From an uncultured Selenomonadales bacterium (GTDB lineage Bacteria > Bacillota > Negativicutes > Selenomonadales > Selenomonadaceae): a DNA stretch of 64,000 bases. The stretch spans positions 1 through 64,000 of the forward strand of contig CAMUZG010000003.1 in NCBI GenBank assembly GCA_947165145.1, read 5' to 3'. The notes beneath the pieces are model-generated. The model did not search any database, was not told the DNA's origin, and saw only the letters and a list, made by a program, of their open reading frames with translations. Every line of letters starts with the position of its first letter. The stretch's first letter is position 1. The position numbers and the translations under genes were made by a program. Positions 48,614 through 50,376 of this stretch are shown here, in pieces.

Positions 48614-48761
48614 GAAAAACCCCGCCACTCAACCGAGTAGCGGGGGAAATTTTTTCTTGGGGAGGGATTTGACCGTTAAAAGTCATGACCGGGGGCTTGA
48701 AGTTTCAAAACGTCGCCGCTGACTGTTGAGCCTGCCGCGAAAACTTTCAAGCCTTAAAACG
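48614..48761 (-). ncRNA. Candidate trans-acting sRNA with C-rich anti-SD segment
   Basis: On the minus strand a promoter (48796-48768) faces a GC-rich terminator with no ORF between. The predicted RNA of about 148 bases has a 5' hairpin (GGCTTGAAAGTTT with GAAACTTCAAGCC, 48753-48694), a single-stranded part with TCCCTCCCC (48667-48659) complementary to a Shine-Dalgarno sequence, and the terminator CCCCGC..GCGGGG with TTTTTC. It does not match SRP RNA, tmRNA or RNase P motifs I know. This explains most of the 394-base gap between comM and the next gene. Confidence 0.55.
48620..48656. terminator. Bidirectional terminator after comM and for the sRNA
   Basis: CCCCGC.ACTC (48620-48630) pairs with GAGT.GCGGGG (48635-48645) around a short loop. 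Plus-strand Ts at 48650-48655 serve comM; minus-strand Ts at 48619-48615 serve the sRNA. Confidence 0.82.
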
Positions 48762-48875: not shown

Positions 48876-48903
48876 TTGACACGCGGCGGGCGTTTGTTAT
48901 ATT
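48876..48903 (+). promoter_or_regulatory. Promoter for the short ABC-F gene operon
   Basis: TTGACA (48876-48881) and TATATT (48898-48903) have a 16-base spacer. Transcription would start near 48910, which rules out the GTG at 48908 as the start codon. Confidence 0.7.
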
Positions 48904-48928
48904 CTTCGTGCAAAGGGAGTGGAGAATT

Positions 48929-50008
48929 TTGATACACATAAAAAATTTGGGGCTCATGTTCGGCAAACGCGAAATTTTTTGCGGCTTCGATTTGAACGTT
49001 GCGCACGGCGAAAAAGTCGGCATTATCGGCGGCGAAGGTTCCGGCAAATCGACTCTGCTTGACATCATGGCGGGACGAATCGCCTCGAAAATCGGTGACG
49101 TGAAAATTTCTGGCGAAGTGCTCACCGTCAATGGCAGTGTTTACGCTGATTTCTCGGAATTGCGTATGGCGGAAATGTCTGCGATTGACAAACTCAAACG
49201 GGCTCTGCGCGGACTCAACGACGACGAAATAATTTTGCTACTCGACGAGCCGACAAAAAATCTCGACACGGACGGCGTCGACTGGCTGATACAATTCCTG
49301 AACGAGCACGAAAATTTGACAAGCGTCGTCGTCAGCAGCGACAGATATTTTTTGCGGCGGACGTGTTCGCGATTAATCACGCTCGGCGACGAACAGGTTG
49401 CTCCGATTGAGATTAATTGCGCTGAACTTTTGCCGCCAACACCTTCGGGCGCAGTGCCTATCGTCGTGGAAGTTGAAAACCTGCTCAAAAATCACGACGG
49501 CGAGCCGATTTTCAAGGACGTGAGCTTTACAATTCGACAGGGGCAGAAAGTCGCATTCATCGGCAAAAACGAACGCGGTAAATCAAAATTGCTCAAAGCT
49601 TTGGCAATGGCGTTTCAGAACGGCGACGAGAGCGGCGGTTGTCTGCACGGGCAAATAAAATTTGCGGACGGCGTGAAAGTTTTTTCCATGCCGAGAGTTT
49701 ACACTCACGCGGCGGCCAAAATCGAATTCGACAAGCTTGCACTCGGCACGGCGAATTTTTTGTTGCTCGACAACCCGACAGCTTGCCTTGACCTGCCGAC
49801 GATTGAGGCGTTGGAGAAAAGTTTAATCGAATTCCCTGGTACGATAATTTTCGTCGACGAAGACCGCGCGTTCACTCAAGCAATCGCGAATCGAATCATG
49901 GACATAACCACACAAGGCACGGTTGACAGAATTGCGACTTACGACGATTTTTTGGCGAACGAGACGGTTAAGTTGCAAATTAAAGAGAAATACAAAGACT
50001 GGGAGTGA
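48929..50008 (+). CDS. Short degenerate ABC-F-like protein
   Basis: This 359-residue protein has two ABC halves, but ABC-F proteins usually exceed 500 residues. Half 1 has Walker A GGEGSGKST and Walker B LLLDEPTKNLD; half 2 has GKNERGKSK and LLLDNPTACLD, where the catalytic Glu is Asn. The LSGGQ signature reads MSAIDK in half 1 and is unrecognisable in half 2. The switch His is Ser (SSDRYF) and Glu (DEDRAF). ATP hydrolysis is probably lost or altered. Start TTG at 48929 after GGGAGTGGAG. It overlaps the leader of aroH. Confidence 0.8.
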   Translation: MIHIKNLGLMFGKREIFCGFDLNVAHGEKVGIIGGEGSGKSTLLDIMAGRIASKIGDVKISGEVLTVNGSVYADFSELRMAEMSAIDKLKRALRGLNDDEIILLLDEPTKNLDTDGVDWLIQFLNEHENLTSVVVSSDRYFLRRTCSRLITLGDEQVAPIEINCAELLPPTPSGAVPIVVEVENLLKNHDGEPIFKDVSFTIRQGQKVAFIGKNERGKSKLLKALAMAFQNGDESGGCLHGQIKFADGVKVFSMPRVYTHAAAKIEFDKLALGTANFLLLDNPTACLDLPTIEALEKSLIEFPGTIIFVDEDRAFTQAIANRIMDITTQGTVDRIATYDDFLANETVKLQIKEKYKDWE

Positions 50009-50013
50009 TTTTG

Positions 50014-50376
50014 ATGACAATGCGCGGGATTCGCGGTGCGATTACGGTCGACGAAAATTCACGCGAACAAATCCGACAAGCGGCTCAACTGCTCGTCACG
50101 GAAATTTTGTCGCTGAACAAATTGCACGCTGACGACTTGGGCGCGATAATCTTTTCGACGACGGAAGACTTGACAACGGCTTTCCCAACTTCGGCGGTTC
50201 GCGAACTGCCCGAATTGCGATTGGTGCCGCTGTTCGACACGCGTGAGCCCGCGATTGAAAATTCGTTGCCGCTGTGTATTCGTGTGCTGATTTTGGCGGA
50301 AGTCGACAAGCCGCAAAATGAAATTTGTCACGTCTATCTCGGCGGCGCAAAAAATCTCCGCCCCGATTTAAATTAA
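50014..50376 (+). CDS. aroH: Chorismate mutase, AroH type
   Basis: The 120-residue enzyme converts chorismate to prephenate for Phe/Tyr synthesis. It shows the AroH pattern MRGIRGAITVDENS, DDLGAIIFSTTEDLTTAFPTSAVRE, LFDTREPAI and the C-terminal HVYLGGAKNLRPDL. GGGAG eight bases before the ATG sets the start. Coupled closely to the short ABC-F gene. Confidence 0.95.
   Translation: MTMRGIRGAITVDENSREQIRQAAQLLVTEILSLNKLHADDLGAIIFSTTEDLTTAFPTSAVRELPELRLVPLFDTREPAIENSLPLCIRVLILAEVDKPQNEICHVYLGGAKNLRPDLN

Follow-up and report, generated by a model that had tools for sequence, protein, structure and literature searches.

A miniaturised descendant of a YbiT/YkpA-type ABC-F protein, retained by selection in Quinella with most of its ATPase apparatus gone

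We analysed a stretch of 64,000 nucleotides (the window) from a genome of the rumen bacterium Quinella (Selenomonadaceae; 82.8% complete, 43 contigs) and identified a gene (48929..50008, + strand) for a 359-residue protein. By alignment, synteny and phylogeny, the gene is orthologous to one for a full-length ABC-F protein (~541 aa) of the YbiT/YkpA type. It is maintained by selection in nearly all of the genus, and its product probably has a reduced or new job, so far undescribed.

The frame is open over its whole length and begins with TTG, the start codon in 42 of 51 orthologues (ATG in the remaining 9). A mis-read frame or an assembly split of a longer gene is ruled out by the occurrence of the same length class in the 51 orthologues. 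A promoter-like site, TTGACA-16-TATATT with a TG (48876..48903, +), matches the consensus at 11 of 12 positions; it is a candidate by consensus only, and 1.3 such sites are expected by chance in the region scanned. A GGGAG/GGAG sequence resembling a ribosome binding site can be read 5' of the TTG (48915..48924, +). Both the intact frame and these two signals are as described in a sequence-only reading of this DNA. The leader matched no described cis-regulatory RNA in Rfam at E 0.1. The next gene is aroH (chorismate mutase type I, Pfam CM_1; 50014..50376, +), whose ATG (50014 or 50020) lies 5-11 nt past the stop codon. The coupling to aroH that had been proposed does not extend to the family as a general trait, as several relatives have the gene elsewhere. 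Between comM and the short gene is a GC-rich hairpin of 11 pairs (48620-48645). Its T-run was seen on the minus strand in the scan; as the plus strand is T-rich after the hairpin too, comM transcription probably ends here.

Pfam ABC_tran was matched in both halves of the protein, which has the ABC-F arrangement of tandem ABC nucleotide-binding domains (NBD1 and NBD2) in one chain, without a membrane domain. All features of the protein are given on the + strand. NBD1 has a Walker A motif, GGEGSGKS (residues 34-41; 49028..49051), and a Walker B region, LLLDEPTKNLD (residues 102-113; 49232..49267). Its Lys40 and catalytic Glu107 are invariant in 51/51 orthologues. NBD2 has a degenerate P-loop, GKNERGKS (residues 212-219; 49562..49585), and a Walker B region, LLLDNPTACLD (residues 277-290; 49757..49798), in which Asn replaces Glu282. 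This position is Asn in 41 orthologues, Ala in 6, Ser in 2 and Glu in 2. The former switch His of NBD1 is Ser137 (49337..49339; Ser in 33 orthologues, Asn in 17, Gly in 1), and the former switch loop of NBD2 (residues 310-313; 49856..49867) has Glu311 in the window and His in no orthologue.

LSGGQ is absent from both halves. In NBD1, alignment and a structure model show an excision junction (residues 67-78; 49127..49162) where the Q-loop, helices and arm are missing, followed by a conserved remnant of the signature helix, AEMSAIDKLKR (residues 81-91; 49169..49201). By alignment, a linker of ~22 residues (156-177; 49394..49459) replaces the ~95 residues of the PtIM in the full-length orthologue, and the arm region inside NBD1 is absent. 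The corresponding junction in NBD2, with a signature helix remnant and no LSGGE, spans residues 257-266 (49697..49726). Neither half has a Q-loop, a signature or a switch His and, with Glu282 lost as well, only Walker A1/B1 with Glu107 is complete. The Walker boxes, the loss of LSGGQ, the Asn in half 2, the replaced switch His and the missing helical insertion had all been recognised from the letters of the DNA, and stand. The absence of the PtIM linker and of both Q-loops goes beyond what was noted then.

An AlphaFold2 model built with 39 orthologues (pLDDT 89.8, pTM 0.85) is poor only at residues 74-78, at the first excision. It aligns over nearly its full length to ABC-F structures (Z 21-26), and the lowest rmsd values (4.1-4.3) are to the cores of ABCF1, Arb1 and ABCE1. 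The short protein is predicted with high confidence to be a foldable, compact tandem of two ABC cores, not a wreck.

The closest match in other Selenomonadaceae genera is an ABC-F protein of 540-550 aa. One such full-length relative (L058) scores 691.7 bits over its full length against NCBIfam NF011646, for which the curated cut-off is 762; the short protein scores 175.7 bits, also below this cut-off, and its best PDB sequence match is YbiT (9njf_Y). In the protein tree, short, 413-aa and full-length Selenomonadaceae forms group together (100/99) and the short forms are a clade (100/100). The long stem (0.98) calls for long-branch caution. In other genera the gene order is glucosaminidase-abcF-ubiB-aroH, and 13 of 15 loci have the ABC1/UbiB-kinase gene in that place. 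A search of 31 Quinella genomes, run without a positive control, found no ubiB. Two basal Quinella loci (L109 and L110) keep the order glucosaminidase-[short gene]-aroH, and their glucosaminidases are 53-54% identical to those of other genera. The glucosaminidase gene is also upstream of the abcF descendant in L111 and in L071 (genome G003), where a 413-aa form directly follows it. The short gene thus shares its neighbourhood with the full-length YbiT/YkpA-type genes. Phage origin or recent gain is ruled out, as synteny shows vertical descent and no relative was found in viral contigs.

Three stretches of the 541-aa L058 protein have been excised: ~70-150 (NBD1 Q-loop, helices and arm), ~226-320 (PtIM) and ~398-445 (NBD2 Q-loop, helices and LSGGE). 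The graded series of 541, 413 and ~355 aa allows the order of losses to be read. In the 413-aa form the arm and the linker are gone, as is most of the NBD2 stretch, and more of the NBD1 helices is left. Its carrier, G003, branches first within Quinella in the MnmE tree (support for the genus 90/85; for the rest 99/97). The NBD1 signature reads LTPNE or similar in full-length relatives and VAPGW in E. coli YbiT, and the NBD2 P-loop is non-standard in most full-length relatives. The half-1 LSGGQ loss is thus ancestral, predating Quinella. Of the composite sites, II (Walker A2 with signature 1) was already weak before Quinella, because full-length relatives are without an NBD1 LSGGQ and most have the non-standard NBD2 P-loop. 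Site I (Walker A1 with signature 2) lost its signature and switch in Quinella.

The protein was found in 63 of 66 Quinella genomes, in one of them as the 413-aa intermediate; a frequency this high excludes a chance pattern. The genomes without it (G027, G039 and G041) are 81-85% complete, and its absence from them may reflect assembly gaps or loss. Outside the genus, in searches that could miss very divergent short copies, none of the order's 123 other genomes had the short protein at E 1e-40, and a 299-genome sample of the phylum contained no miniaturised copies, only frames of 530-570 aa matched over ~150-200 residues. Every tested Quinella genome except the incomplete G027 also encodes one separate ABC-F protein of ~550-570 aa with both P-loops and the Walker B Glu (on contig C4 in the genome of the window).

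The dN/dS ratio of the short gene has a median of 0.145 and a range of 0.05-0.22 (71 pairs with dS 0.1-0.9; NG86 counts on pairs that are not independent, with all values far from 1). Most of the closest pairs fall at 0.05-0.15. By half, the ratio is 0.165 for NBD1 and 0.094 for NBD2, and for aroH it is 0.138 on 61 of the 71 pairs. Selection for a retained role, as first suspected, is borne out by values equal to those of aroH and by retention across the genus. The sequence-only reading would have taken as signs of decay either longer homologues with intact signatures or a ratio near 1. The former exist, as the 541-aa orthologues in other genera have LSGGE and SHD; the inference of decay fails because the latter does not occur in the comparison of relatives. 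Nor were the relaxed selection and broken frames of a pseudogene found, as only one copy is clearly broken (G037) and one contains a single TGA (G005). Outright decay is ruled out by dN/dS together with persistence in several genomic contexts.

Measured against MnmE, the short form evolves at a rate of 1.10 and the full-length form at 0.22, about a fivefold difference, so the constraint on the short form is ordinary, yet weaker than that on the parent enzyme. In 8 of 9 segments, identity is 0.79-0.92 among full-length proteins and 0.29-0.46 between short and full-length proteins. The exception is the C-terminal segment of NBD2 (residues 321-356; 49889..49996), with identities of 0.74 among full-length proteins, 0.64 between short and full-length proteins and 0.76 within the short family. 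This segment took no part in the rate burst and still evolves as in the full-length enzyme. At 21 positions the short family has newly fixed residues that four full-length relatives do not have.

Compared with the YbiT/YkpA type (NF011646; E. coli YbiT 9njf_Y; B. subtilis YkpA), the short protein has the same order of two ABC cores and a likewise non-canonical NBD1 signature. Unlike these proteins of ~541 aa, it lacks the arm, PtIM linker, LSGGE, switch His and NBD2 Glu, and its helical subdomains are cut down to the signature helix. In B. subtilis, this parent type (YkpA/YbiT) assists ribosomes in getting past charged runs (PMC11381351). The tandem ABC fold is also common to EttA (4fin, 9nl5, 7msc), with a match to 9nl5_E at Z 25.9 over 333 residues in which the NBD2 C-terminal regions align. 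However, EttA works via its arm, its PtIM and a pair of live composite sites, and the short protein has none of these in complete form. In M. tuberculosis EttA, a salt bridge links E526 of NBD2 to uS7, a protein of the 30S head, and contacts with the L1 stalk, H68, tRNA and the PTC are made by the arm and PtIM (PMC8782954). Glu521 of E. coli EttA aligns with D333 of the short protein, which is invariant in the short family. By similar numbering, via E. coli EttA, the M. tuberculosis E526 would occupy the D333 position, or one a few residues off. The ATP-bound core of human ABCF1 (5zxd; Z 24.3, rmsd 4.3 Å over 319 residues, among the lowest of the high-ranking matches) is eukaryotic, longer as solved (464 residues) and not an orthologue. 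ABC exporters with degenerate sites retain their helical subdomains and one live site, whereas the short protein is without any complete composite site. Degenerate nucleotide-binding sites are described for ABC type I exporters (PMC7756269), where the loss of catalytic residues is, as in the short protein, asymmetric and kept by selection. Linker and arm deletions have been reported among ABC-F proteins, and the arm is not universal (PMC6723617). In the open-access literature we found no paper on both ABC-F and Quinella, and no description of an ABC-F protein that is still kept by selection after losing its linker, its two composite sites and the greater part of each helical subdomain.

Our preferred reading, which we hold to be almost an even call, is that the short protein is a nucleotide-binding, non-motor pseudo-ABC-F that acts via the C-terminal surface of NBD2, with the 30S head as its partner. 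Alignment, synteny and tree show that in Quinella the ABC-F protein was stripped of three parts: the PtIM linker, the arm together with the helical subdomain of NBD1, and the helical subdomain of NBD2 along with LSGGE. Judged from its motifs, NBD1 should still bind Mg-nucleotide. The closing-and-hydrolysis cycle would not be run, or only very slowly, because neither composite site has a signature, Q-loop or switch His. The protein would act through the one segment whose evolution still matches that of the full-length enzyme, although the conservation of residues 321-356 could serve folding instead of a partner. The 30S head would be the most likely partner because the matching region of EttA contacts uS7; this is the weakest step. 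The earlier suggestion of a non-hydrolysing role stands as to a retained role, and non-hydrolysis is likely from the motifs, though the invariant Lys40 and Glu107 qualify it and the latter leaves room for some hydrolysis. Ribosome binding at the E-site in the usual ABC-F manner, also suggested, is unlikely because the arm and PtIM, which make most of the contacts, are gone, leaving just the side of NBD2 that faces the 30S head. A broader proposal, plausible but distinctly tentative, is that a translation factor gave rise to a nucleotide-binding protein without a motor, whose new, non-catalytic function became fixed genus-wide, the 413-aa intermediate recording the path.

The current picture of ABC-F proteins is one of levers powered by two ATP sites. 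That selection keeps the remainder when lever, arm and most of the two sites are lost shows that part of an ABC-F protein has a use apart from the motor; NBD2 residues 321-356 are the part indicated. If the 30S head is the partner, binding would be separable from the power stroke in this family.

The compact tandem may instead have been repurposed off the ribosome, as a nucleotide-dependent scaffold or regulator of another Quinella protein, which we regard as possible but rather unlikely. Every known arm and PtIM contact is gone, the 21 newly fixed positions suggest new surfaces, and constraint persists while the gene changes its genomic context. However, no partner gene is constantly linked to the short gene, and the sole segment with the old rate corresponds to a region that faces the ribosome. 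A slow ATPase with a reduced role as a translation factor, in which one site (Walker A1/B1 with Glu107) works without a canonical signature, is improbable: K40 and E107 are invariant, and full-length relatives already managed with a non-LSGGQ NBD1 signature and a mostly non-standard NBD2 P-loop, but both Q-loops, the site-facing LSGGE and both switch His have been lost. Slow decay of a gene not yet lost would fit its absence from three genomes, the two defective copies and the faster evolution, yet is very improbable, being largely refuted by the aroH-like dN/dS, by intact frames of one length class across the genus and by the incompleteness of the genomes without the gene.

The clearly broken copy (L052, G037:C138) encodes residues 1-144 and 144-359 in different frames, followed by aroH, and reflects either a real mutation or an assembly error. 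Erosion of NBD2 was also seen in full-length ABC-F proteins of another genus (g9). L062 has the P-loop GPNGAAKT and SRD rather than SHD at the switch, and both L062 and L064 have DEPTDHL, possibly a second, independent start on the same path. Finally, a second, inverted copy of the 3' end of the short gene lies upstream of an intact gene (L100:3487-3591, - strand; contig of L043:4128-4232). This partial copy corresponds to residues 321-355, is 63% identical to the window protein, and is fused in frame to a remnant resembling a membrane-protein gene that is whole in the related genomes L093 and L099.
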